13,125 nt of DNA from contig NVTH01000211.1 in the NCBI GenBank assembly GCA_002401525.1, positions 1 to 13,125 of the forward strand, read 5' to 3'. Below the pieces are notes generated by a model that was not told the DNA's origin, searched no databases, and was given only the letters and a program-made list of their open reading frames with translations. Position numbers and translations under genes: made by a program. Of the stretch, positions 2,525-13,125 are shown one piece after another. The stretch comes from Moraxellaceae bacterium. GTDB taxonomy: Bacteria; Pseudomonadota; Gammaproteobacteria; Pseudomonadales; UBA3067. Positions within the stretch are counted from its first letter, which is position 1; each line of letters starts with the position of its first letter.

Positions 2525-3757
2525 GTGGCTATTGAAGTGTCCTCGCCCGCTAAAATTCTAACCATCGATGACGACAGATTTATTCAAAAAGTCGTTAGCC
2601 GTGCACTTGAACCGGGTGGTTTCATTACCCAAGTAGCCAGTAATGGTGAAGATGGCATTTCCCGCGCATTGGAGGATAAACCAGACATTATTTTGCTCGA
2701 TGTGGAAATGCCCGGCATTAACGGTTATGAAGTTTGCACGCGTTTACGAGAAATGCCAGACATGAAAGACGTTGCTATTGTCTTTTTATCTTCTCATGGT
2801 TCCCTCAGAGAGCGCCTACAGGGCTACGAAGTAGGTGCAGATGACTACCTGGTAAAACCGTTTGAAGCAGAGCACTTATTGGCCCGTGTTAAGGTTTTGG
2901 GTAAATACCAGGAGGAACGCAAAGAACTACAATCACAGTACCAATTAGCGCGGAAAACCGCTCTCATCTCAATGACTGGTAGCAGCGAACTCGCCCTGGT
3001 GCTCCAGTTCACTCAAAAAAGTATCAGCCATACAACCATCGACGAAACTATTGAGAGCCTGCTAAATACAATTGACGAACTCTCGCTGGACTGTTGTATA
3101 CGAGTAGATGCTGATTCAGGGACGTTATGGTTTGCCTCCAGCGGAACCATTAGCCCTTTGGAAAAAGAGTTGGTAGAAACCAGTGAGCAAGGTCATCGAT
3201 TTATGGATTTTGGTTGTCGGACGGTGGTTTATTTTTCCAATTTAAAGCTGCTGGTTAGAAATATGCCGATCGACGACCTGGAGCATTATGGGCGTATAAA
3301 GGACATGTTGCCCGTACTGATGTCAGCAGCAAGTATTAGAATTAGCACTCTTAGTACCTACAAAGCCTTAGTAGATGAAAGTGAGGGACTTAAACGCTCG
3401 TTCCAAGGGATACGCAAAAACCTTTATGACCTTGCCTCCACCATTGTTGAAAACAGACAACGTAGCCGTGACTATATGGCTGCCACAGTAAGCGACATTA
3501 ACATGGAGTTAATGCATATGGGGTTGGAGTCTGAGCAAGAATCCTATTTGTTAAATAAAATTGAAAGCTCCATCATGAAAACCATGAACGAAATGGACGT
3601 AGGCGAACAGCTCCGTACAACCTTTACCTTTATCCTGGAAAGGCTTGACGATTCCACGAAAACCCACGGTGATTTATTAGACGCTTTTATTGAAGTTCAA
3701 ACCGCCTACGATTCGGAGCAGACGCAGGAGATTGAAGGCAGTGTTGAAATTTTTTAA
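2525..3757 (+). CDS. Response regulator: receiver domain plus unrecognised helical output region
   Basis: The protein has 410 residues and a GTG start. The start is forced: the in-frame stop TGA at 2510-2512 lies just upstream, and no other start codon falls between. No strong Shine-Dalgarno is visible. Residues 9-125 are a canonical CheY-like receiver: acidic pocket D15-D17, phospho-acceptor D59 in LLDVEMPG, S89 in the Thr/Ser switch position, and K111 in LVKPF. Residues about 130-410 show no DNA-binding, GGDEF, EAL or HD motif that I recognise. They look mixed then mainly helical, with a long helical stretch over about 280-385 (for example SEGLKRSFQGIRKNL). It probably signals through protein-protein contact. 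No sensor kinase is adjacent, so its input is unknown. Confidence 0.9.
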   Translation: MAIEVSSPAKILTIDDDRFIQKVVSRALEPGGFITQVASNGEDGISRALEDKPDIILLDVEMPGINGYEVCTRLREMPDMKDVAIVFLSSHGSLRERLQGYEVGADDYLVKPFEAEHLLARVKVLGKYQEERKELQSQYQLARKTALISMTGSSELALVLQFTQKSISHTTIDETIESLLNTIDELSLDCCIRVDADSGTLWFASSGTISPLEKELVETSEQGHRFMDFGCRTVVYFSNLKLLVRNMPIDDLEHYGRIKDMLPVLMSAASIRISTLSTYKALVDESEGLKRSFQGIRKNLYDLASTIVENRQRSRDYMAATVSDINMELMHMGLESEQESYLLNKIESSIMKTMNEMDVGEQLRTTFTFILERLDDSTKTHGDLLDAFIEVQTAYDSEQTQEIEGSVEIF

Positions 3758-3799
3758 TTCCTGATTTTTATATTTTTTAGTCGAATTCTGGTTCGAAGA

Positions 3800-3990
3800 A
3801 AGATCGAGCGAATGGATCGAGGACAGGCATCAAAGTAGGCAGGAATCAAACTAAGTAGCTTTTACTAAAGTAGGTCGATATGCTGATCATGAGAACAGTT
3901 ATTGATGTGTTGTATCGTAATCAAAAGGATGTTGATTTGACTCGCCCTCGTTCGAAATTAATCTCGGTTAAGGCGCGCCTGACCTACTAG
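3800..3990 (+). pseudogene. RAYT (REP-associated Y1 transposase) remnant 1: 5' end only
   Basis: This shares its 5' flank and first codons with two other copies in the window: ATCAAAGTA, AGGTCGATAT, then GTTATTGAT, CGTAATCAAAAGGA and GATTTGACTCGC. From ATG 3889 it reads a 33-residue frame containing RNQKDVDLTRPRSKLISVK, the start of the RAYT seen at 10322, but it stops at 3990 before the conserved YYHVISRC segment. The fragment is bounded by 8-bp inverted repeats, AGTAGGTC (3869-3876) and GACCTACT (3981-3988), so it may be a mini-element end rather than a random deletion. It lies on the left of mazEF. Confidence 0.65.
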
Positions 3991-4015
3991 TTTTTCCGAA
4001 AACCTTCTTCTTTTC

Positions 4016-4070
4016 GTATCTACATTGTAGACACTTGCGTTCATTGTGTTAATGTCTACATTGTAGATAC
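4016..4070. promoter_or_regulatory. Twin palindromic operator upstream of mazEF
   Basis: GTATCTACATTGTAGACA (4016-4033) and TGTCTACATTGTAGATAC (4053-4070) are inverted copies of one another with one central mismatch. Each holds the near-palindrome TCTACATTGTAGA. A further half-site ATGTAGA lies at 4075-4081, next to the ribosome binding site. Such arrays bind MazE and MazE-MazF complexes and autorepress the operon in known systems. The promoter probably lies between or across the two sites; I did not assign -35 and -10 boxes. Confidence 0.75.
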
Positions 4071-4090
4071 ATGAATGTAGAGGAGGATAT

Positions 4091-4345
4091 ATGCAACTAG
4101 AGATTCAAAAGTGGGGCAATAGTGCGGCACTTAGACTAAATAAAACCATTTTAAATCAGCTTTCTACAGCCATCGGTGACAAGTTCAGGGTTGAAGTAAA
4201 GGATGGGAGTATTCTATTAACGCCGATAAAAGATCAGCCTGAATATAAGCTTGAAGATCTTCTCGCAACATGCACAGTTAAAAATACTAGGGTGGATGAT
4301 GATAATTGGTTGTCTGACGATCCGGTCGGAAAGGAGATCTGGTAG
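4091..4345 (+). CDS. mazE: MazE-family antitoxin (SpoVT/AbrB fold)
   Basis: The protein has 84 residues. The N-terminal half carries the MazE/AbrB swapped-hairpin signature: QKWGNSAALRLNKTI at 6-20 and then VEVKDGSILLTPI. The acidic C-terminal tail ends DDPVGKEIW, the type of segment that threads along MazF and neutralises it. The strong ribosome binding site GAGGAGG sits a few bases before the ATG. Three bases separate its stop from the mazF start, so the pair is one operon. It should autorepress through the twin operator upstream. Length and residues fit the family well. The module is bordered on both sides by RAYT 5' fragments. Confidence 0.93.
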   Translation: MQLEIQKWGNSAALRLNKTILNQLSTAIGDKFRVEVKDGSILLTPIKDQPEYKLEDLLATCTVKNTRVDDDNWLSDDPVGKEIW

Positions 4346-4348
4346 CGC

Positions 4349-4687
4349 ATGTCAAAGAGATATTCTCCTCGCCGAGGAGACATAGTTTTTACTGATTTTG
4401 ATCCGCCTTCTGGGCACGAACAAGCTATGGAACGTCCAGCGTTAGTACTTTCTCCGGAAGTATTTAATAAAAAAATTAAAATGGCTTTAATGGCCCCGAT
4501 TACGTCAAAAATTAAAGGCCACGGTTTCGAAGTGTTGCTTAGTGATGATACAAAAACCTTTGGAGCCGTTTTGTGTCATCAAATAAAAATGATGGATTTT
4601 AATTCCAGAGGAATCAAATTTATTGAGCGGACGTCAGATAAAACTGTTAATGATGTGCTAGCCAAAGTGCGATTGCTGGTGACTTGA
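4349..4687 (+). CDS. mazF: MazF-family endoribonuclease toxin
   Basis: The protein has 112 residues, the usual MazF/PemK length. It shows RGDI (9-12), GHEQ (22-25), RPALVLSPEVFN (29-40) and APITSK (49-54). Arg29 and Thr52 fall at the same numbers as the catalytic Arg29 and Thr52 of E. coli MazF, so it is expected to be an active sequence-specific, ribosome-independent mRNA interferase. AAGGAG precedes the ATG inside the end of mazE. It could equally be named ChpB or PemK; only cleavage specificity would separate these. The frame is undamaged, in contrast to much of the neighbouring DNA. Confidence 0.93.
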   Translation: MSKRYSPRRGDIVFTDFDPPSGHEQAMERPALVLSPEVFNKKIKMALMAPITSKIKGHGFEVLLSDDTKTFGAVLCHQIKMMDFNSRGIKFIERTSDKTVNDVLAKVRLLVT

Positions 4688-4714
4688 ATGAAAAAATGTA
4701 GAATATTAAATATA

Positions 4715-5276
4715 AGTCGAGCGAAGATAGGCATCGACATAGGTAACCTTTTACAAATGCTACCTTCAAGGGCGTGGTCTTTTTTTAGGTAGGTCGATAT
4801 GCTGACCCTAAGAACAGTTATTGATAGTGTTGTATCGTAATCAAAAGGAAGTTGATTTGACTCGCATACCGTGAACTCCAGATTTTCGCCTACAGCGTAA
4901 TGTCCCATCATATCCATCTTGTAATTAAGCTCTGTCCTCAGGAGATCGAAGAACTCAGTAATTCAGAAGTGTTAGAGCGATGGGCCTCTTTATTTAAAGG
5001 CCGCCTTTAGTTCAGCGATGGCAAGCGGGGAAGTGTTGGAGCCGGCTGAGAGTGAGGCTGTATTGGGTTTGGAGTCTGCCATCGAGGAAGCAATCGCTGA
5101 GCAGAATTATTCGTCCAGATAAGCGCGGCGCTATCTCTATCAGTCTTCCGACGATACTACAGCGAATAGAAATTGACTTCAGTACGTGGCTAAAAAATAG
5201 TGCCCAATTTGAAGCGGTATACCATGAGAAATTCGCCAAACGGCGGTCTCGTCGTCATTTAGCGCGGGCTGGGTAA
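4715..5276 (+). pseudogene. RAYT remnant 2: internally deleted Y1 transposase
   Basis: The 5' flank and first codons match remnant 1 (AGGTCGATATGCTGA at 4791, then GTTATTGAT and CGTAATCAAAAGG). At about 4865 the frame jumps to the catalytic region: FAYSVMSHHIHLVIK at 4885-4929, with the HUH-type HIH at 4909-4917, then SEVLERWASLFKGRL and a stop at 5010. Another frame continues with VLEPAESEAVLG. After a further gap, the C-terminal region reads RPDKRGAISISLPTILQRI and ends LARAG at 5276. Order and motifs fit RAYTs (IS200/IS605-like single-strand transposases that act on REP sequences). Missing segments and mixed frames mean it is dead. Confidence 0.8.
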
Positions 5277-5390
5277 AATTAATCGTGTAGAACTGGAATT
5301 ATAAGGCCTGCGCTAGATGCGCAGTGTTGGTCTAGGTAGTTTTGGGGAGGGGCTGAGATCTTTTTAAGGGGGGGCTGTCCCTCTGGTTTT
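5262..5390 (+). repeat. RAYT 3' terminus plus G-rich repeat, copy 1
   Basis: The end codons (ARAG, stop) run into a flank that recurs at 11394 and 12843: GGGTAAAATTAATCG, ATTATAAGGCCTGCGCTAGA, then TTGGTCTAGGTAGT, which matches 13017-13030. Next comes TTTTGGGGAGGGGCTGAG with TCTTTTT, shared with 9120-9146. It closes with a degenerate form of the short unit (GGGGCTGTCCCTCTGG, 5371-5386). Compared with copy 3, the middle of the flank is deleted here. Confidence 0.75.
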
Positions 5391-5691
5391 ACCGAATGTG
5401 CACCGACATTCTACGACAAAATCATCATTGGTGCCTCGCCAGTGCCGGGTTGACCTCATGTGCCAGTCACACGATCTTTTAATAAAATCAACTCTTCTCG
5501 CTAAAAAATCCTGTATATTCCGCTCTCGGTTTCACTGGTTAACTAGGCTAGGGTTAGCTCGAGGCTGCAACTGCAAAGAATGAGGTGATTCAGAACAGTG
5601 TTGACGCCACATGACCGACCATATTTCGTTAAAGCACACGTTAAATGTGTTTCAAGCTATTGTTTTAAAACCGTTAGGTAGCACATATACA
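5391..5691. other. Intergenic region without recognisable gene
   Basis: I see no RNA gene, known repeat or convincing coding region. A 61-codon frame at 5398-5583 has no family resemblance or ribosome binding site. The 27 codons from ATG 5611 to the hydrolase start are in frame with it but do not resemble the family. The stretch probably carries the hydrolase promoter. Confidence 0.4.
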
Positions 5692-6318
5692 ATGTCTGAA
5701 AAAATTAAGTATTTGATCGAAGGGCCTAAGAATCCGAAACAAACCATCATCTTAGCCCACGGTGCAGGGGCGCCAATGGATTCCGACTGGATGAATTCGG
5801 TTGCTGCATACTTAGCCGAAGCGGACATTCGCACCGCCAGATTTGAATTTCCTTATATGGTTGAGCGCAGGGAGACAGGGAAAAAACGCCCGCCCAACCC
5901 CCAAAAGGTATTACTAGGCACGTGGTCCCAAGCAGTGGCTGATTGGAACTGTGAAAACAAACTTTTTCTATCGGGGAAATCTATAGGAGGTCGGATGGCA
6001 AGCTTAATGGCTGACAACGCCAAAGGCGTCGCGGGGGTAATTTGCTTTGGATTTCCGTTCCATGCGCTAGGCAAGCCGACTAATAATCGCATCGACCACC
6101 TTAAAACACTAAAGACTAAAACTCTCATTATTCAAGGTACCCGCGATACCATGGGTACCCAAGAAGAAGTCGCAGAGTATGAGTTATCAGAAGCAGTTCA
6201 GCTGCACTGGTTAGAAGATGGCGATCATTCTTTTAAACCGCGAAAAAAGTCGGGCTTCACCCAGGAGCAGCATATTGAATCAGCTTGCCAGGCTGCCATT
6301 AAATTTATGCGTGGGTAA
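5692..6318 (+). CDS. Alpha/beta hydrolase of the KANL3/Tex30-like family
   Basis: I place the start at ATG 5692, giving 208 residues beginning MSEKIKYLIEGP, because this family starts a few residues before the first strand. An in-frame ATG at 5611 would add 27 residues with no family likeness. Neither start has a clear Shine-Dalgarno. Motifs: oxyanion segment ILAHGAGAPMDS, the conserved FEFPYM and KRPPNP, nucleophile S97 in SGKSIGGRMAS, acid D152 in GTRDTMG, and H179 in DGDHSF, a complete Ser-Asp-His triad. It should be a cytosolic serine hydrolase; the substrate is unknown. The stop codon abuts an antisense relic of a different gene, so this gene probably came to rest here by rearrangement. 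Confidence 0.88.
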   Translation: MSEKIKYLIEGPKNPKQTIILAHGAGAPMDSDWMNSVAAYLAEADIRTARFEFPYMVERRETGKKRPPNPQKVLLGTWSQAVADWNCENKLFLSGKSIGGRMASLMADNAKGVAGVICFGFPFHALGKPTNNRIDHLKTLKTKTLIIQGTRDTMGTQEEVAEYELSEAVQLHWLEDGDHSFKPRKKSGFTQEQHIESACQAAIKFMRG

Positions 6319-6520
6319 CTGAGGCTCCGCACCACCCACAAGGTGTGCTGAAGCGCCTGCGTCCTCCCGTGCCGTATGCAGTACCCGTAGCGGTTCTTGC
6401 CCGGCACAAATAATCACATGATTTACCTCAAGGCAATGTGGTTCACCGTTAAGCATCCCCTGATGACGGAAGTCCTTCAGGCGTAAACGAAAATACTCGA
6501 ATTTCTGTATTAATCGTAGT
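6319..6520 (-). pseudogene. fadH: Relic of the 3' end of 2,4-dienoyl-CoA reductase
   Basis: Read on the minus strand, one frame gives NGEPHCLEVNHVIICAGQEP, then LRVLHTAREDAG and AHLVGGAE. This matches the C-terminal NAD(P)-binding part of FadH-type flavin/iron-sulphur 2,4-dienoyl-CoA reductases, where CAGQEP and HLIGGAD are characteristic. CAGQEP is encoded at 6391-6408 and VGGAE at 6325-6339. Two TGA codons lie upstream near 6525, and past 6318 the frame runs into the hydrolase gene without family resemblance, so only about 65 codons remain. It is a fragment, not a gene. The rest of the stretch to 6652 shows nothing I recognise. Confidence 0.65.
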
Positions 6521-6652
6521 CATCACAGAAGCTAGAAGAAATATGCATCCAAAAATCAACCTACTTTTCCTAAACCCCCGCTTTCTAGAGACGCTCTCCA
6601 TAGCGCATTCCGTTCCGCTTAGTCTGTATTTTTATAATTTATCTTATCGATT

Positions 6653-6931
6653 TTAAACCGGATGAAATTCCGGAGCGTAAACAAAACCACATGCTTTGGC
6701 ATACTTCTTTAAGCTAGCAACCGTCGGGTTGCCTTTGCCAGTCTCCAATCGGCTGACGTTACTTTTTTTAGTACCCATCTTCAGCGCAACTTGGTCTTGG
6801 GTCAAACCCGCCGCTTTTCGCATTTCAAGCAGCTTGCTAATCAGCGCAAACTCATCCTCTAATGCGTCATATTCCTTTTTGACTTCTGGGTTTTGAAGCG
6901 CCCTCTGCTTTAATCCTTTTAAGCTATTCAT
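6653..6931 (-). CDS. XRE-family antitoxin (HigA-like)
   Basis: The protein has 92 residues. An N-terminal helix (KGLKQRALQNPEVKKEYDAL) typical of HigA-type antitoxins is followed by a Cro/CI helix-turn-helix at about 36-66: AAGLTQDQVALKMGTKKSNV and then RLETGKGNPT. It should bind DNA and repress its own operon while neutralising the toxin upstream. AAGGAGG lies seven bases before the ATG. The start overlaps the end of the toxin frame by 8 bases, giving the toxin-first order usual for higBA. The frame is intact although its partner looks shortened. Confidence 0.88.
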   Translation of the reverse strand: MNSLKGLKQRALQNPEVKKEYDALEDEFALISKLLEMRKAAGLTQDQVALKMGTKKSNVSRLETGKGNPTVASLKKYAKACGFVYAPEFHPV

Positions 6932-7157
6932 TGCATACCTCCTTCATTCGCCTTTTAGCTAGATTCAATTCCTTTTTCGGTGTTTTCTGAGTTTTCTTCA
7001 CAAAGGCGTGCAAGATATAAATTCGCTCACCTTTCATATAACAAAAAAATGCTCGACCAATTCCCTCACTGGATTTGGCTCTAATCTCAAAGAGGCCTCT
7101 GCCTACTGGATGGGTATGCGGAGGGCCTAAATTCGCCCCCCCCACTTCAAAATCCAT
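6924..7157 (-). CDS. HigB/Gp49-like toxin, N-terminally shortened
   Basis: The protein has 77 residues and matches the middle and end of Gp49/HigB-type RelE-superfamily toxins: NLGPPHTHPVGRGLFEIRAK, EGIGRAFFCY, ILHAFVKKTQKTPKKEL and AKRRMKEV. These toxins are normally about 100-120 residues; about 30-40 N-terminal residues are missing. An in-frame stop lies two codons upstream of this ATG, so no longer version exists in this frame. The shortening begins beside an 8-base C-run on the plus strand (7136-7143). One base fewer there would join the conserved part to an alternative start (MTRERRWILKWG), which also lacks the usual N-terminus. It is probably a weakened or inactive mRNA interferase kept as part of the antitoxin operon. 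Confidence 0.75.
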   Translation of the reverse strand: MDFEVGGANLGPPHTHPVGRGLFEIRAKSSEGIGRAFFCYMKGERIYILHAFVKKTQKTPKKELNLAKRRMKEVCNE

Positions 7158-7269
7158 CTTCGTTCACGCGTCATAGCGTTAAACTTAATAATTCAACATA
7201 CTATATAACCGTATACATAACCAATTGTTTATTAAGCGTTAATCATAAAAAATCAAACTGATTAGCATC

Positions 7270-7528
7270 TGAAGCCCGAAGGGCGGGCAGGGTAAATCCA
7301 TGCTGGCAATTAATTTGGCTGCCGCAGCAGTTGAATTAGGGCTAAAACCATGGTGATTTGCCAGGACCAGCAAGGCACTTCGATGCTTATAAAAGAGCCG
7401 ACGCCCAGGGGCGAAAAATAATCACGGTGGTTACCGACGGTCAAGCACCTCGCGCTGACGAAAAATCAACCACTGGATACTTGAAAGGGCAGGGTGTTTT
7501 GGTAATCCCATCGAGCGGAGTATTAGTT
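7270..7528 (+). pseudogene. Relic of a ParA-like ATPase
   Basis: From 7273 one frame reads SPKGGQGKSMLAINLAAAAV and then ELGLKPW, stop. This contains the deviant Walker A motif KGGxGKS (7279-7299) and first helix typical of ParA/MinD ATPases. From ATG 7350 a second frame reads MVICQDQQGTSM, where the family has a VIDxDPQG motif. A third frame continues with YKRADAQGRKIITVVTDG and GVLVIPSS and is cut by the short repeat at 7529. So it is one gene fragment spread over three frames, without start or end. ParA proteins partition plasmids and some mobile elements, so this may be debris of one. The identity of the third frame is less certain than the Walker motif. Confidence 0.55.
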
Positions 7529-7550
7529 GGGTGCCTGTCCCACTGGTTTG
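7529..7550 (+). repeat. Short GGGTGCCTGTCCCACTGG repeat
   Basis: This is a near-identical copy of the unit at 9147-9167 and 11699-11719, and related to 5371-5386 and 12829-12841. It sits exactly where the ParA-like relic stops resembling its family. The unit is plausibly the REP-like target sequence of the local RAYT family. Bases 7551-7700 after it are an AT-rich leader without a gene. Confidence 0.75.
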
Positions 7551-7700
7551 CCTACCTGGCTTCCGGCTAGAGCGCTTTCTAATAAATAGTTGATATTATT
7601 CCTTTTTTGAAGAAACCCAATAACTTACAATGTAGCCGACAACAGATTCTGTAGGAAGAATAAATTTAATACCTGGTTTAGTGAGCAAAGGAATTCGATA

Positions 7701-8296
7701 GTGGCGTCACCAGCTGAAAAAGCAACATTGCGATTAAAATTAGAAAAATATGAAGGTAAAATAAGCCATCTTTACCTTGGTTCAAAAGGGTTTGTTACTG
7801 TGGGGGTTGGGCATCTTTTAAGAGGTCTTTCCAGCGCTAAAAAAGTTAAATTTTAAAAAAAGCAATCTTTTGGTGGCATCTAAAGATGAAGTAAAAGCAG
7901 ACTATGAATCGGTAAAGAAACAACCGGCGAATCGTTTAGCTTCTTTCTACAAAAAAATCTACGAAGTTAATACTTCAAGATGTCGCTATTAATACACTTA
8001 CGGATAAGCATATAGACTCTTTTGAGGGCGAATTAAAAAGACTGTTTTCTGATTTTCCATCCTATCCTTCGGAAGTTAGGCTAGCGCTATTTGATATTAT
8101 TTTTAACGTTGGTATGACGGATTTAAATAATAAATGGCCGAATTTCAAGAAAGCCGTCTCAGCAAAAGATTGGATCGAGGCTGCAAAAGAGTCTAGCAGA
8201 AAGGCGCCTATCTCAGCTGAACGAAATAAATATGTAAAAGGCCTTTTTGAGAAGGCCGCAACGAATTCAGCAAAAAAAACACCCGCTAAGCCATAA
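7701..8296 (+). pseudogene. T4-type lysozyme-like peptidoglycan hydrolase, two frameshifts
   Basis: GTG 7701 has AAAGGA eight bases upstream. Frame 1 reads LKLEKYEGKISHLYLGSKGF and VTVGVGHLL, then stops at 7854. The next frame continues with NLLVASKDEVKADYESVKKQ and PANRLASFYKK. The last gives TKLILQDVAINTLTDKHIDS, ALFDIIFNVGM and AERNKYVKGLFEKAA. Removing one base in the A6 run at 7839-7844 and one in the A7 run at 7951-7957 restores about 197 residues. The family hydrolyses the glycan of peptidoglycan and includes phage endolysins and, I believe, secreted antibacterial effectors. The catalytic Glu (YEG) and the T of TVGVGH are present, but the usual catalytic Asp position (YxD) reads Gly. 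A lipoprotein gene follows at 14 bp. Confidence 0.75.
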
Positions 8297-8310
8297 AATA
8301 CTGGAACACT

Positions 8311-9072
8311 ATGAAGATTTATTTTTCTAATTTAATGCCTGTAATCACCGCTTTACTCTGTGCTTTAGGGGTCCTGAGCTGCAGCAGCCTAGCAATATCA
8401 AAAGACGCTGAAACAGAGCGGCCCATAACATGGGATGCAGGTTTTATAATGCCTGACCTTTTAGCTTCAGCCGTTGAAATCAATCAACTAAGCGATCTCT
8501 CACTGCTCCTAACTATCCCTTGGTATGCTGAAATAGCGGTAATACAAACAGGCGTTGGAGATTTAAATTTTTCTTCCTGCAAAGATTACTTCGAAGGTTC
8601 GACTCCTCTCACGAGAACAAAAAAAGATAATGAGATGAGCGCCTATCTTGAATTTAAAATCATGTGTGAAGCAACGCGTATTTTGCTAGCCGCCAAATCT
8701 TCCCAAAGTACTTATTTACCGAATTTAATCCTAAGTGAAAGCTTGCCTACCCTCTGGCCAAAGTCCGTTGCATTGCAGACGTCAAAAAATGAATCGTATC
8801 GAAATGCCCAAGATCCAGAGCTAAAGACATGGGCCGATATATCTGCAACTATCAAATATGATTCAGTGTCGTCGGCTAAATCCATCTATCATCATGACGG
8901 TGGGTATCAAGAGCTTGATGTTGTAGGGCGGGGTGATATTGATCACGATGGTATTGAGGATGTATTAATTGTTACGCGTGATCACTTGGAGGGGGGGGAT
9001 TACTTTAATATCCGTTTGTTCGCGTTTTCTGTGAACAAGCAAAATCATTGGCATTTGATTAACGAAATTTAA
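8311..9072 (+). CDS. Putative lipoprotein, possible immunity partner of the lysozyme
   Basis: The protein has 253 residues and I do not recognise the family. Residues 1-23 are a signal peptide ending GVLSC, with C24 a fair lipobox cysteine, so outer-membrane or periplasmic anchoring is likely. The body has Cys at 90 and 119. Near the C-terminus, DIDHDGIED (209-217) resembles a calcium-binding loop and is followed by LIVTRDH and a final beta-rich segment ending HWHLINEI. The start is 14 bp after the lysozyme stop with GGAA before the ATG, so the two are probably co-transcribed. A cell-wall hydrolase followed by an exported lipoprotein is the usual layout of periplasmic effector and immunity pairs. 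That role is inference; the frame is intact while the hydrolase is broken. Confidence 0.8.
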   Translation: MKIYFSNLMPVITALLCALGVLSCSSLAISKDAETERPITWDAGFIMPDLLASAVEINQLSDLSLLLTIPWYAEIAVIQTGVGDLNFSSCKDYFEGSTPLTRTKKDNEMSAYLEFKIMCEATRILLAAKSSQSTYLPNLILSESLPTLWPKSVALQTSKNESYRNAQDPELKTWADISATIKYDSVSSAKSIYHHDGGYQELDVVGRGDIDHDGIEDVLIVTRDHLEGGDYFNIRLFAFSVNKQNHWHLINEI

Positions 9073-9106
9073 CTTGTTAAGAGCCTAACGAGACTATCTA
9101 GATTAG

Positions 9107-9170
9107 AGCGAAACGGTTATTTTGGGGTGGGGCTGAGTTCTTTTTGAGGGGTGCCTGTCCCACTGGTTGT
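9107..9170 (+). repeat. G-rich repeat plus short unit, copy 2
   Basis: TTTTGGGGTGGGGCTGAG, then TTCTTTTTGA, then GGGGTGCCTGTCCCACTGG (9148-9166). The whole block parallels 5339-5386 with a few substitutions. It separates the rightward lysozyme/lipoprotein module from the leftward metallopeptidase module and stands where their transcription converges. Confidence 0.75.
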
Positions 9171-9200
9171 TACGCTATATACCGTTTGAGTTGTTGCCAA

Positions 9201-9623
9201 TTAACGCATGCTTGGAATGTCGCATTCCCCAGTTTCTATATTAAGAATTATATGTATGCCATTTGGAATTCTTTTATCCATAGGGGGGGATTCAGGAATA
9301 AAAATAAAACGGAAGTTCTCATTTAAATTGGCCAATTCATTTTTACCATTTTGAGCGCGCATGTCTGCAGCAGTTTTTATAACGGCTTTAGTGTAGATTA
9401 AACTGCTTCCGTGAACACCACGCCCTTTCCATGGTTTTGTATTTGAGCATTTACGAGCCTGAGCTAATATGTTGGCTCGAGTTCCTTCTTTTTCTATCTC
9501 ATCTTTGTTGATAAGATTTGAATTGTTTAATCCGGTAATGTCTTCTGATTCTTGATTAAGAGCAAAAGCACAACTAGTGGTTAATGCTAATAGAGCGTAT
9601 AAGCTTGATTTAAATAATTTCAT
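9201..9623 (-). CDS. Small secreted protein paired with the metallopeptidase
   Basis: The protein has 140 residues and I do not recognise the family. Residues 1-21 form a Sec signal peptide (MKLFKSSLYALLALTTSCAF, then A), predicting a mature periplasmic or secreted protein of about 119 residues. Two cysteines remain, at 59 and 134, and could form a disulphide. The mature part starts acidic and Asn-rich, then contains KAVIKTAADMRAQNG and a beta-like C-terminal segment (FRFIFIPESPP, GIHIILNIETGECDI). It begins 15 bp after the metallopeptidase stop on the same strand, with AAGG upstream, so the two are one operon. The position suggests an inhibitor or immunity protein acting outside the cytoplasm; this is inference from layout only. 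Confidence 0.75.
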   Translation of the reverse strand: MKLFKSSLYALLALTTSCAFALNQESEDITGLNNSNLINKDEIEKEGTRANILAQARKCSNTKPWKGRGVHGSSLIYTKAVIKTAADMRAQNGKNELANLNENFRFIFIPESPPMDKRIPNGIHIILNIETGECDIPSMR

Positions 9624-9638
9624 TGTAAACCTTGTTTC

Positions 9639-10091
9639 TTAGCCCGTTACGCCGGGTTCATAGGGTCCTAGCGCAGACTTCATTCTGCATTCCTTTACTC
9701 GCAATTCAGCTTCGTGACTCCCTGCCCCCGGAGCTCCATTTAGATGAGCTAGCTCATGAACTATAGTCGCTGCGACAGTCCAGCGTCCCATGTTTAGAGT
9801 ATATTGGGATAAAACAACATCTTTTGGATGGCCTGCAGGGATAACCCATCCCCAAAGTCGGCCAGTGTTGTCAGGGTCGTAATTCAACCAAATATTTGGG
9901 TCGTCAAACAGTTCTCGGAACCTCTTTTTCCCACTTAATTTTATGAACGAAGCGTTACATTCGGCATCGTTTCGCATACTTTTCGCTAATATCTGAAGCG
10001 CATCTTCAATGGTCTTAATAAATTTTTTAGGAACCTTGCTCGAACCAATTGGACCAATGTGAACTGCTGCTTGATCATTTATGCTTAACAT
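9639..10091 (-). CDS. Small HExxH zinc metallopeptidase-like protein
   Basis: The protein has 150 residues. HELAH at 112-116 is a zinc-peptidase motif: H112 and H116 as ligands, E113 as general base. The following GAPGAGSHEAE places E127 or E129 as a likely third ligand about ten residues later, in the gluzincin style. The preceding helix TVAATIV fits the fold. There is no signal peptide. Upstream residues include LFDDPNIWLNYDPDNTG and a GRLWGWVIPAGH stretch. AGGA lies seven bases before the ATG. It heads a two-gene operon with an exported partner, so it may be a small antibacterial or anti-host protease toxin. A housekeeping role cannot be excluded, since no close family is recognised. Bases 10092-10221 upstream hold its promoter region and no other gene. 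Confidence 0.8.
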   Translation of the reverse strand: MLSINDQAAVHIGPIGSSKVPKKFIKTIEDALQILAKSMRNDAECNASFIKLSGKKRFRELFDDPNIWLNYDPDNTGRLWGWVIPAGHPKDVVLSQYTLNMGRWTVAATIVHELAHLNGAPGAGSHEAELRVKECRMKSALGPYEPGVTG

Positions 10092-10221
10092 TGTTAATCC
10101 TGGAAACCTTAATTAACGGATGAAGGTACATGAAAAACCTCTGTTTCAAAAGGAACTAGTACCATTTTAAATCCAAATTAAAAGTTGCTCTTCTTCAGCG
10201 CGAAATCTTAAGGGTTTCAGG

Positions 10222-10677
10222 TAGAGTAATGTGGCAAACAGAGCAGGAATGGGGGGCAAGGATGGTCATCAAAGTAAGTGGCCTTTTCTAAGGTAGGTCG
10301 ATATACTGGCCCTAAGGACAGTTGTTGATGGTTTTACATCGTAATCAAAATGATGTTGATTTGACTCGCCCGCGCTCGCAATTAGTTTCTATTTCAGACA
10401 CCCCTTATTATCACGTAATTTCCCGCTGTGTTCGGCGCTCTTATCTGTGTGGCATTGGTCCACATTCGGGTGCGAACTATGAACACCGACGACAATGGAT
10501 CGAATATCAACTCTATATCTGGCATCGATATTTGGCCTTCAAATTTGCTAATACAGCGTAATTTTCAATCATCTCCATCTTGCAATTAAGCTGTGCCCTC
10601 AGGAGATCGAAGGCCCTAGTAATCCAGAGGTAGTAGAGCGATGGACCTCATTGTTTAAAAGCCGGCCTTTAGTTCCG
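10222..10677 (+). pseudogene. RAYT remnant 3: 5' half of Y1 transposase
   Basis: The 5' flank shares GGCAAGGATGGTCATCAAAG and AGGTAGGTCGATAT with the other copies. From 10322 a frame reads RNQNDVDLTRPRSQLVSISD, TPYYHVISRCVRRSYLCG, then NYEHRRQWIEYQL. This is the unmistakable N-terminal half of a RAYT. It stops at 10561, and after a one-base shift continues as NHLHLAIKLCPQEIEG with the HUH-type HLH near 10570-10578, then EVVERWTSLF. The likeness to remnant 2 ends at about 10677, exactly where the stop codon of the minus-strand membrane gene lies. The matching RAYT 3' end is found at 11394, so the missing middle is occupied by a two-gene cassette. Confidence 0.85.
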
Positions 10678-11031
10678 CTAAACTCCAATGTCATCGACAT
10701 GAGGCGATTCGCTGCGCGCTAGCACTTTCTTCAAAAGAAAAGCTGACAAAAAACAAAACAGTACATTGGTTGTAAAAATGATTCCGCCAGGTATTGGGAG
10801 CTCTAAGGTGAATAGGTGCACGATAGTAAATAACCCTGTTATTTTTATTGCCTTGAGCACCCATTCTCGTCCTTTGGTCGCAAGTATCGAAACGGTTAGG
10901 CCTAAAATAGTAGCTGTAACAGCGACCACCATGGTTGCTAAAGCTTGCTCTATCGGTATGGTGCGGGTAAACCCCATAATAATTAAGGCAAGGGAAATTG
11001 ACGTAATAATGTAAGAAAGGCTTCCAAGCAT
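10678..11031 (-). CDS. Four-helix membrane protein
   Basis: The protein has 117 residues and I do not recognise the family. Four hydrophobic segments are visible: about 6-21, 30-51, 61-76 and 82-101, joined by short loops. A short acidic/basic cytosolic tail (KKVLARSESPHVDDIGV) follows. GGAAG lies seven bases before the ATG, and the gene starts two bases after the stop of the upstream minus-strand gene, so the two form a tight operon. Its stop codon lies on the junction with RAYT remnant 3. A small inner-membrane protein after a short basic protein could be an immunity protein, an anchor or simply an orphan; the sequence does not decide. Confidence 0.75.
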   Translation of the reverse strand: MLGSLSYIITSISLALIIMGFTRTIPIEQALATMVVAVTATILGLTVSILATKGREWVLKAIKITGLFTIVHLFTLELPIPGGIIFTTNVLFCFLSAFLLKKVLARSESPHVDDIGV

Positions 11032-11032
11032 T

Positions 11033-11419
11033 TTATGCTTCCAGTTTGATTAGTGAAACAGTAACGTTTTTTATATTACCGTCTAAAGCGCTAGCTAAAA
11101 ATGATAGCCCTGCGGCAATAGAATCTTTTAATGACTTTACTATATTTTTTGTTATCACCAAATTTGAAAATCTTTTTGGGGATTTCCCCGAGTACACTAG
11201 TGATTTAAGTTCACCATTTGATATCCCAGGTCTGTTAGCTTTGGTTGATTCCTTGGCTAGGCGAGCCCTCGCTTGTCTATTTACGGCCCCTTTTCCTGCG
11301 GTTTTTAGGCCTACTCCTGAGCGTTTTAGTATATTTAAGATTTTAACCGTTGCCACAGCTGATGCGCTTGCGCATAGCTGGGATATACCATCCACACGAA
11401 CGGGGTAAAGTTTAATCAT
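11033..11419 (-). CDS. Short basic protein upstream of the membrane protein
   Basis: I place the start at the ATG at 11419, giving 128 residues (MIKLYPVRVDG...). A longer frame to 11491 would run backwards through the RAYT 3' repeat and is unlikely to be coding there. No clear Shine-Dalgarno is visible. The protein is rich in Lys, Arg, Gly and Ser: LKTAGKGAVNRQARARLAKE and KSPKRFSNLVITKNIVKSLK are typical. It ends in a mildly hydrophobic stretch, SIAAGLSFLASALDG. There is no signal peptide or known motif. It is nearly fused to the membrane gene (one base between). Its first codons overlap the shared RAYT repeat, so its expression signals may derive from that repeat. Confidence 0.65.
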   Translation of the reverse strand: MIKLYPVRVDGISQLCASASAVATVKILNILKRSGVGLKTAGKGAVNRQARARLAKESTKANRPGISNGELKSLVYSGKSPKRFSNLVITKNIVKSLKDSIAAGLSFLASALDGNIKNVTVSLIKLEA

Positions 11420-11560
11420 GTGGAGCGAAAGTATAAGGCCTGCGCTAGGTGTACAGGTTTTGTTGTGATGACTTGGTCGTTTTTTGATCAAGGCTGCTCG
11501 GTTTTTCGGTTTTTATTTTTTGCTGCATAGTTTCGAAATGGAGGTTATAGTTTGGCCTGC
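11394..11560 (+). repeat. RAYT 3' terminus repeat, copy 2
   Basis: ACGAACGGGGTAAAGTTTAA ends a RAYT frame (TRTG, stop). It is followed by GTATAAGGCCTGCGCTAGG, AGGTTTTGTTGTG, TTTTTTGATCAAGGCTG and ATGGAGG...TTTGGCCTGC. These parallel 12847-13030 piece by piece. It is in the same orientation as RAYT remnant 3, so 10222-11560 reads as one transposase copy whose centre was replaced. Confidence 0.7.
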
Positions 11561-11746
11561 ATTAACAAAATAGCCTACAATATAGGCGATTTCAGCACAG
11601 GTTTTAATTTGCCTGAAGCTAAAGGAAGAGGATGGGCGGCTGTCAATTCTCTATTTTTTAATATGTCATATGATTGGTTCTATAACTCCATTTTGAGAGG
11701 GGTGCCTGTCCCACTAGTTTTGCTGAATACTGTAAATCGATCATAG
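11552..11746 (+). CDS. Doubtful 64-codon ORF spanning the short repeat
   Basis: A TTG at 11552 has a good GGAGG seven bases upstream (11540-11544), and the frame runs 64 codons. However, the ribosome binding site belongs to the RAYT 3' repeat, and the last 16 or so codons are the short repeat read through. The unique middle, NIGDFSTGFNLPEAKGRGW, has no family that I recognise. Translation is possible but function is unlikely. The only other content of this stretch is the repeat itself. Confidence 0.2.
   Translation: MACINKIAYNIGDFSTGFNLPEAKGRGWAAVNSLFFNMSYDWFYNSILRGVPVPLVLLNTVNRS
11699..11719 (+). repeat. Short GGGGTGCCTGTCCCACTAG repeat
   Basis: This matches the copies at 7529 and 9148 except for one base in the last part (ACTAG for ACTGG), and is preceded by TTTTGAGA, as at 9143 (TTTTTGA). 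It lies 40 bp before the periplasmic protein gene, so that gene sits between this copy and the one at 12829. Confidence 0.75.
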
Positions 11747-11758
11747 AGTGATTAAGCC

Positions 11759-12238
11759 ATGAGTTCTTTTGGAACGCGTTCGAGTATTAAAGTTGTTGCG
11801 ATGTTTGGTATGCTAGCTTTGGCTAATAGTAATGCCATTGCTGAAAATAAAACGCTTATACCGTTGGAGGTGTATTGTCTTGTCGAGTCTGAAAATATGA
11901 AAGACCAAGCACCTGACGAATTTAGCAGCGAACTGGTGACATTGAGAGGTTATAGCGAAGGTGCTTTTGGCAAACGGGTACTACTTAAGACCGAGCGATA
12001 TGAATTTTCCGTAAGTCCCCATGTTGTCGTGGGGCTAGCTGATACGGTTAAAATATTTGCCTTCAAAAATAGTATCATGGACCTCGATACTGGCACTGTA
12101 GTGTCTGGATATAGTGCTACGGGCATTGGCAATAGAGACCCGCGCAGGGCAACGCTGACATTGGTTACTCATGAACGCAATCGGGGCAGGTTGGTGCCGC
12201 AGGCTAGATTGGAATTCGATTGTTTTGAGCGTAGGTGA
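11759..12238 (+). CDS. Hypothetical periplasmic protein
   Basis: The protein has 159 residues and I do not recognise the family. Residues 1-28 look like a signal peptide: basic start, hydrophobic KVVAMFGMLALANSNAIA, cleavage after AIA. The mature part contains one early and one late cysteine (C40 in EVYC, C155 in FDC), which could form a disulphide joining the two ends of the domain. It is beta-rich in appearance (ELVTLRGYSEG, RVLLKTERYEFSVS, VVVGLADTVKIF, ATLTLVTHER). No catalytic motif is seen. The size and predicted disulphide resemble small periplasmic inhibitor or immunity proteins, but no effector gene is adjacent, so it could be an orphan. GAGTGA before the ATG is a weak ribosome binding site. 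Confidence 0.75.
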   Translation: MSSFGTRSSIKVVAMFGMLALANSNAIAENKTLIPLEVYCLVESENMKDQAPDEFSSELVTLRGYSEGAFGKRVLLKTERYEFSVSPHVVVGLADTVKIFAFKNSIMDLDTGTVVSGYSATGIGNRDPRRATLTLVTHERNRGRLVPQARLEFDCFERR

Positions 12239-12354
12239 GGGCGAGGGGGGAGGTAGTCAGATTTTTAATCTAAATATTCAGAAGCCATTTATCGTCAAGT
12301 GCGAACTCGCGATCAGATTAATGCATTTTTTTCTATGCGAGCCAGAGCGTATTT

Positions 12355-12720
12355 ATGACTAAGTCGATATTTGCGGCGGCGATATGTGCATTAGCAGTCC
12401 TCGTGACAGTAATCGACGCAGTTGATTTAGTTCTCTCGCCCCTAACAAAACACGGCCCTGTCCAGGTGCTCTCTTATCATAAGCATCCGGTGTTATTCAT
12501 AATTTATTTGGCTGTTTCTATCCCCCTTTTTGGGGGGATAGGGTATCTGCTTTGCTGGTCTGTCATAGTCAATTTCTCGCAAAAAAAGGAAGATGGAAAA
12601 CAACTTGTTTTAATGGAGCAAAAAAAGAAGGAAAAGCAAGCCCACTTGGAGCAACTAAAGCAGCAGCGACAGAGTAGGCAGAAAAAACCACGAGGAAAAA
12701 GAACTAATAGTAGGCCGTAG
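12355..12720 (+). CDS. Small membrane protein with basic coiled tail
   Basis: The protein has 121 residues and I do not recognise the family. Two membrane segments are predicted, at about 5-24 (IFAAAICALAVLVTVI) and 45-72 (PVLFIIYLAVSIPLFGG onward). They are followed by a highly charged Lys/Gln/Glu tail of nearly 50 residues (LVLMEQKKKEKQAHLEQLKQ and then QRQSRQKKPRGKR), probably a cytosolic coiled coil with a basic end. The start has no clear Shine-Dalgarno. It lies 116 bp after the periplasmic protein gene on the same strand; they may be co-transcribed. Function is unknown. Confidence 0.65.
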   Translation: MTKSIFAAAICALAVLVTVIDAVDLVLSPLTKHGPVQVLSYHKHPVLFIIYLAVSIPLFGGIGYLLCWSVIVNFSQKKEDGKQLVLMEQKKKEKQAHLEQLKQQRQSRQKKPRGKRTNSRP

Positions 12721-12808
12721 AATATTAAAAGCTAACTGTCCTCCTGCACACCTTATCACCACAATCCCTAATCTACAGTAAACTTCTGGATGCGAGCATT
12801 TGGAGCAA

Positions 12809-12832
12809 AGTAAGAAGTGCAGTAAGAAGTGC
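12809..12832. repeat. Perfect 12-bp tandem duplication
   Basis: AGTAAGAAGTGC occurs twice head to tail (12809-12820 and 12821-12832). The second copy ends in the GTGC that begins the short repeat unit. This may be a slippage or insertion footprint at the repeat boundary. The bases from 12721 to here hold no gene. Confidence 0.8.
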
Positions 12833-13039
12833 CTGTCCCACCGCGTTTGCACGAGCCGGGTAAAATAATCGCGTTGAACTGAGATTATAAGGACTGTGCT
12901 AGATGCGAAGGTTTTGCTGTGCCTGTGATTTGTGGTGAAGGTGTGGTTTGGCTGTTTATTGATCAATATGGCTGTGTTTCCTGGTCTGTTTTGGAGGAAT
13001 GGTTGATTGGGCAGTATTGGCCTAGGTAGTGCCCATCCA
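12829..13039 (+). repeat. Short unit fused to RAYT 3' terminus, copy 3
   Basis: GTGCCTGTCCCAC (12829-12841) runs directly into a RAYT end reading AFARAG and stop (12843-12863). The flank follows: TAAAATAATCGCG, GATTATAAGGACTGTGCTAG, AGGTTTTGCTGTG, TTATTGATCAATATGGCTG, TTGGAGG and ATTGGCCTAGGTAGT. This is the longest version of the 3' flank and explains the shorter copies at 5262 and 11394. Confidence 0.75.
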
Positions 13040-13055
13040 GAAACAGCCGTTTCCC

Positions 13056-13125
13056 ATGAATCATAAATTGAATCGAACGGCGTTAAAGTTATTGGCCGTG
13101 ACGCTAAGCAGGACGGGTTTTATTT
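13056..13125 (+). CDS. Possible start of a gene running off the window
   Basis: ATG 13056 opens a frame reading MNHKLNRTALKLLAVTLSRT that stays open to the end of the window. The basic then hydrophobic beginning could be a signal peptide. There is too little sequence to name it, and no good ribosome binding site is visible. Confidence 0.3.
   Translation, partial: MNHKLNRTALKLLAVTLSRTGFI

Follow-up and report, generated by a model that had tools for sequence, protein, structure and literature searches.

A short inverted tag at the putative ends of RAYT-type elements, and their decayed relics in a variable gene-module island of a Moraxellaceae bacterium

Background

Among the REP-associated tyrosine transposases (RAYTs; REP, repetitive extragenic palindrome), those of TnpA(Y1) subclass 2.3 have a median length of 325 aa, carry WE and YVDLNP motifs and occur as several divergent copies per genome, and the study that treats them describes their genes as having no identifiable REP-like secondary structures in the flanks (Quentin et al. 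2018, PMC6006769). Within the literature searched, this was the only paper found in which TnpAREP appears together with subclass 2.3, and none was found that treats RAYT, integron and attC together. Here we analyse a 13,125-nt stretch of DNA (the window), i.e. the entire contig NVTH01000211.1 (C112) of the draft genome of a Moraxellaceae bacterium (GCA_002401525.1; 3.37 Mb, 250 contigs, 74% complete), in which relics of one RAYT family lie between small gene modules. The draft state of the genome makes it possible that repeat copies were lost in assembly, and all counts refer to the assembled sequence. We consider it probable that the window holds a variable island of small unrelated modules, now decaying, which was repeatedly entered by a tag-ended RAYT; what is new here is a short tag that appears to mark the ends of RAYT relatives.

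Results

The comparison of the window with itself bore out the first-pass annotation in its count of three 5′ and three 3′ ends of one RAYT family: the 5′ ends were located at ~3821-3960, 4724-4865 and 10259-10677, and the 3′ tails at 5259-5392, 11395-11719 and 12846-13038, all on the + strand. A repeated 19-mer, sought in the draft genome at up to two mismatches, was present as one exact and two one-mismatch copies, all confined to the window (reversed control 0), and an exact 18-mer of it was found in two of the 56 genomes searched (i.e. the source genome and a member of the same genus, G001). Its core, GTGCCTGTCC (the tag), had four exact copies in the whole draft genome (reversed control 1), all of which lie on the + strand of the window (7531, 9151, 11702 and 12829), and at no more than one mismatch the + strand of 3758-13125 contained 4 tags, as compared to a mean of 0.14 and a maximum of 2 in 200 shuffles. 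An inverted one-mismatch copy was present at 3821-3830, and two-mismatch copies at 3975, 5371 and 13029 fell on RAYT relics; since six other two-mismatch sites (5431, 5460, 7448, 8449, 12454 and 12919) do not clearly coincide with relics, such tags are weak on their own. Furthermore, the RAYT DNA at 10222-10690 matched, apart from itself, three stretches of the window and (weakly) one site on contig C8, and the sole match of the 3′ flank in the draft genome was itself. As flank and tag matches concentrate in the window, the RAYT repeats are clustered rather than dispersed in the assembled genome. The one gene of the source genome with the Pfam family Y1_Tnp, on contig C165, was of another type (29% identity over 62 residues).

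Relics (E1 to E6, Table 1) were present at seven of the eight module boundaries from the response-regulator gene onward (the division into modules being our own), and none was found between the hydrolase and the HigBA-type pair. Nearly the entire coding sequence is gone from E1, and the C-terminal piece of E2 has 86% identity to the RAYT protein of G001. Reading E5 and E5′ as a single RAYT carrying cargo was not needed; in G001, isolated tails are found that begin at the last codons or further on.

An open RAYT copy in G001 encodes 325 aa (one codon being ambiguous) with NHxH, WE and YVDLNP motifs, and it is by the length, WE and YVDLNP of this copy that the window relics, themselves fragments, resemble TnpA(Y1) subclass 2.3. 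The HUH motif reads NHIH in the G001 copy and is NHFH, NHLH or NHYH in each of the remaining nine proteins aligned, the motif of subclass 2.3 being NHYH. RAYT protein matches were recovered from 8 of the 11 genomes searched (the source genome G000: 6, four of them in the window; G001: 16; G002: 17; G003: 8; G004: 19; and three others of the order). The alignment of ten relatives (A3) was used to fetch loci, of which the best 80, mostly from marine Gammaproteobacteria, were analysed.

The top 9-mer found de novo in the 3′ flanks of these loci was TGCCTGTCC (20 of 80 loci; far control 1), and that of the 5′ flanks was its reverse complement GGACAGGCA (15 of 80; far control 1); among the matches listed, the publications containing TGCCTGTCC all appear unrelated, judged by their titles and the opening of their abstracts. 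The degenerate tag RTGSSTGKC (i.e. [AG]TG[CG][CG]TG[TG]C), picked after the 9-mer result had been seen in the same flanks, was counted, as was end iteration, over 77 loci (3 of the 80 being dropped for short flanks). Downstream of the gene it was present in the expected orientation in 48 of the 77 loci (opposite strand 4), upstream and inverted in 50 (opposite strand 4), and in the far control in 4 and 3. The matched-end count covers only the 34 loci having both tags within set distances: here the median distances are 71 nt from the 5′ tag to the start and 198 nt from the stop to the 3′ tag, and the variable letters of the tag agree between the two ends in 27 loci (shuffles averaged 11.05, and none of the 10000 attained 27). 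Matching variants at both ends would be expected of real element ends. Taken together, these sequence comparisons suggest that tags at statistically supported positions mark the ends of many subclass 2.3-like relatives, the exact ends being putative. In the G001 copy and the two G002 copies a 3′ tag is present without any 5′ tag of the degenerate pattern, and eight loci of a 362-aa subtype showed (with a slightly wider pattern) one end at most, or none, within the flanks read.

The 48 3′ ends, folded individually, revealed no common hairpin by eye (GTAG itself, a tetranucleotide of the kind placed at the hairpin foot in RAYT/REP systems, was not searched for), and a common hairpin at the 3′ tag was discarded as a candidate, none being evident and the fold of one tail being no better than shuffles (z -0.73). 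As the tag is not a secondary structure, it adds to the description given in PMC6006769 and does not contradict it. Rfam searches (E up to 1) yielded no family for the window, L044 or L047, and for L049 a single tmRNA-like match, far below the gathering score.

The ends are frequently iterated. At least two tags were present in the 3′ flank of 21 of the 77 loci (opposite strand 0) and in the 5′ flank of 17 (opposite strand 2). The 57 neighbouring tag pairs (from 22 of the 80 loci, 26 of the pairs being complete tandem copies) share an outer homology with a median of 10 nt (interquartile range 8-13, maximum 82) and an inner homology with a median of 10 nt (interquartile range 6-41, range 0 to 317); over 54 tag copies, taken from the window and from relatives, the median was 11 nt on the outer side (maximum 49) and 12 nt on the inner side (0 to 839). 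As the inner homology has the wider range, the outer edge of the end copies appears to be the steadier one. Tandem tails were observed in G002 (C10) and in G001, where the open copy on C139 is followed by three of them, five of the nine RAYT tail matches of this genome lie within 6.6 kb of C139, and more relics are found on C14, C26 and C130. In G002, 14 of the 18 exact 10-mers lie in two RAYT arrays.

Several arrangements of repeats were seen in the relatives. In G007 (C24, L127:1906-2181) a same-orientation array of 7 tags with partial copies is separated by ~9 kb from the closest RAYT detected; on C86 of G002 a 170-bp, 83% direct repeat (L067:9846-10015 and 13079-13248) brackets a RAYT, a tag array and an attC-like site; and an 84-bp repeat directly upstream of a RAYT (L107:6287-6370) is dispersed over many G002 and G004 contigs.

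The surroundings of the relics differ within the genus. The response regulator of G001 is 87% identical to that of the window and is followed by a different gene, with no RAYT match and no tag (at up to one mismatch) in 14 kb; as G001 carries different DNA after the response regulator, the left boundary of the island is variable. The right flank of the island lies beyond the end of the contig. On C14 of G001, two RAYT 3′ fragments enclose a module of three genes, and a direct repeat (494 bp, 98.4%) of the 3′ part of a host gene stands on either side of the island (L047:8044-12595), so that the segment looks as if a circle had been integrated by homologous recombination; within it lies what we take to be an IS30-like start. 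Window DNA at 5464-5726 has 85% identity to the end of the G001 contig C106, and the alpha/beta hydrolase has an upstream tag in both species (here the two-mismatch one at 5371, in G001 a one-mismatch one at L046:7949). Ahead of the response-regulator gene of the window, the 7-mer AACCATG is tandemly repeated (2470-2518).

The gene modules and relics are collected in Table 1. The modules listed by the first-pass annotation held in part: the mazEF and HigBA-type pairs were recovered by Pfam; the lysozyme has a broken frame and is known through relatives (its two pieces match intact ones, with 73% in L229 and 64-70% in L230); and the metallopeptidase is without a Pfam family above cut-off. The lipoprotein is likely the immunity partner of the lysozyme. 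Upstream of mazE, a direct repeat with TCTACATTGTAGA (4008-4073) is perhaps the mazE operator. In the open reading frame of the basic protein (11036-11491, -) an ATG (11419) sits inside a RAYT 3′ tail, and this gene may borrow its start codon from the relic.

Table 1. RAYT relics and gene modules of the window (coordinates on the forward strand).
Feature	Position	Strand	Description
E1, RAYT relic	3821..3996	+	5′ end with inverted one-mismatch tag (3821-3830), fused to two-mismatch 3′ tag 3975-3984
mazE-mazF (PemK) toxin-antitoxin pair	4091..4687	+	PF04014 and PF02452 above Pfam cut-off; between E1 and E2
E2, RAYT relic	4724..5392	+	both ends, internal deletions; two-mismatch 3′ tag at 5371; 5′ tag by eye
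Alpha/beta hydrolase	5611..6318	+	PF20408, 256 bits; absent from the module list of the first-pass annotation
HigBA-type pair	6653..7157	-	Gp49/DUF891 toxin and HTH_3 antitoxin; Gp49 and HTH_3 above Pfam cut-offs
E3	7529..7548	+	lone exact 3′ tag
Lysozyme-type gene	7701..8296	+	broken frame; Pfam 13.8 bits, below cut-off; recognised via relatives
Lipoprotein partner of lysozyme	8311..9072	+	paired in relatives
E4	9120..9173	+	3′ tail fragment, exact tag at 9151
Secreted-type protein	9201..9623	-	in one module with the putative metallopeptidase
Putative metallopeptidase	9639..10091	-	HELAH motif by eye; no Pfam family above cut-off
E5	10259..10677	+	RAYT 5′ end to ~codon 106 (5′ third)
Small membrane-type and basic protein	10678..11491	-	no Pfam family above cut-off
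E5′	11395..11719	+	3′ tail (11395-11467 matched), exact tag 11702; stretch between aligns weakly
Periplasmic-type and small membrane-type protein	11759..12720	+	no Pfam family
E6	12829..13038	+	exact tag 12829, then tail copy (12846-12921 matched), ending in two-mismatch tag 13029

The first-pass annotation had further proposed that the RAYT assembled the island from toxin- or effector-like cassettes, a proposal which is not supported beyond local coincidence. Among 390 genomes of the order, 6 have matches to the window lipoprotein, one of them being the source genome; in four of the other five, a gene or domain resembling lysozyme adjoins it, and no RAYT match was found around it in any of the five (5.4-11.5 kb read in each). 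In G001 (L231:3634-5741, C63) the lysozyme domain forms the end of a 394-aa protein, the lipoprotein comes next, and the 11.5 kb read contain no RAYT match; in L233 the contig stops right after the lipoprotein gene. The degenerate tag occurs 8 times in those 48 kb (vs ~6 expected by our own arithmetic from equal base frequencies), including a full 10-mer in L231 ~3.9 kb from the lipoprotein gene and a 9-mer ~0.8 kb before the L233 lysozyme. The lysozyme/lipoprotein module appears to exist independently of the RAYT. Moreover, the genes next to intact relatives are for the most part of other than toxin-like kinds: in 30 of the 42 eligible loci (out of the 80), with toxin-like families assigned by judgement, the nearest 3′ gene was toxin-like in 2 of 30 (PIN at L174, FRG at L180) vs 0 of 30 control genes (i.e. 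a gene 3.5-6 kb away from the same loci) by Pfam, and had no Pfam match at 0.001 in 10 of 30 vs 4 of 30. RAYT copies of the GTDB family also adjoin housekeeping-type genes (e.g. ndk at L113, named by eye).

Discussion

On the reading we favour, the island would be placed downstream of a conserved response-regulator gene, where a RAYT of the subclass 2.3 type would have entered and left relics. The intact element would span ~1.3 kb and consist of an inverted tag, ~71 nt, a transposase gene of ~325 codons, ~198 nt and a matching direct tag. Its ends would often be iterated locally, with extra end copies placed beside an existing end, keeping a short outer edge and varying in inner extent (as seen in the relatives), and the HUH transposase may nick at the tag on single-stranded DNA, one-ended insertion or re-replication then producing the end copies. 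The window relics would have lost their middles (E1 and E2) or 3′ part (E5), and E3, E4, E5′ and E6 would represent 3′ copies only. The modules would have arrived by ordinary horizontal transfer and recombination, and the relics may act as repeats for recombination.

A number of observations weigh against this reading. The degenerate tag was chosen after viewing the flanks, the loci are kin and the shuffles ignore kinship, and 29 of the 77 loci have no degenerate tag after the gene. The inner and outer homologies of the 57 pairs have the same median and differ in spread alone, the paired inner/outer test on the 54 copies was not significant (p=0.12), and the four exact window tags share only 0-5 nt inside (8-12 nt outside) by that measure. 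No clean empty site was found with the G002 locus that was used, the element ends and target being putative. Some RAYT copies of the family adjoin toxin-antitoxin pairs (Pfam-confirmed within ~0.5 kb at L106, L109 and L115, examples picked by eye that give no rate), and a tag lies upstream of the hydrolase in both species, so that modules and tags may be linked.

The alternative that survives best, and which is compatible with the entry of a tag-ended RAYT into a variable island, is that homologous recombination between the relics shuffles the modules while the RAYT itself has long been inactive. This is tentative and rather unlikely: the repeats share their orientation, and the long direct repeat around the G001 C14 island is as expected of circle integration, but the relics are poor substrates today (the longest matched piece is 127 bp at 83%, and pieces of at least 50 bp are 74-94% alike) and no recombinant pair was found.

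An origin of the island as an integron cassette array that decayed and received RAYT insertions is improbable, even though its modules are small and include toxin-antitoxin pairs. The source genome does encode an integron integrase (C210:14971-15837, 385.5 bits at a cut-off of 265), on a contig other than that of the window; in G001, the contig with the open RAYT and its tails (C139) has, immediately behind a short gene, an attC-like site with a high score (L044:8092-8180), and in G002 the attC-like site on C86 (L067:10923-10977) lies ~950 bp from a RAYT. On the other hand, a home-made scan (which does detect sites in L044, L066 and L067) revealed no attC-like site in the window, in accordance with the earlier remark that no module boundary carries integron ends; the module genes lie on both strands, and G001 has no integron-integrase match. 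For the window we reject this origin for want of attC-like sites, by a scan that is home-made and whose 3 hits on the source contig C8 were not above the 1 to 3 of shuffles. On C139 of G001, a ~300-bp repeat stands in three copies between small genes (L044:1510-1827, 3608-3923 and 7388-7689), and one of its ends resembles, by eye, an integron right end.

We regard as very improbable a one-ended mobilisation in which the RAYT, having cut at the 3′ tag, takes along variable preceding DNA, whole modules included, to be inserted behind earlier tags, which would make the island an array of units each closed by a tag. The module-tag-module-tag order of the window in one orientation, the small units of the relatives with a common outer edge and varying inner extent, the G001 C14 module between two 3′ fragments and the tagged hydrolase of both species are consistent with it; against this, none of the modules was observed at a second place along with its tag, four genomes have the lysozyme/lipoprotein pair with no RAYT match, and the enrichment of toxin-like genes next to intact elements is slight at most. 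Least likely of all is the generalisation that subclass 2.3 RAYTs copy one-endedly from the 3′ tag and, in long events, take neighbour genes, thereby creating tag-closed strings of modules, i.e. cassettes without an integron.

If the tags are true ends, a subclass described without recognisable flanking structures would gain defined ends, which would allow direct tests of cutting, target choice and mobility, and the iteration of ends suggests how REP-like arrays could arise. As to the island itself, the presence of decayed transposase ends among toxin modules does not necessarily imply that the transposase collected the modules.

In comparison to known systems, the locus is like integron cassette arrays in its small modules, toxin-antitoxin pairs and repeats in between, and differs from them in that the window has no attC-like site and genes on both strands. 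With the IS200/IS605 family the element shares an HUH Y1 transposase and mobile multi-copy behaviour, but here the protein is longer and the tags are short and inverted. The short inverted motifs flanking the gene and their multiple local copies recall RAYTs with their REPs or REPINs (also bacterial interspersed mosaic elements, BIMEs), whereas no common hairpin is evident by eye at the 3′ tag of the relatives. In protein the likeness is to the subclass 2.3 RAYTs (~325 aa, WE, YVDLNP and several divergent copies per genome), from which these elements would be set apart by a matched inverted tag, often iterated, at both ends of many relatives.

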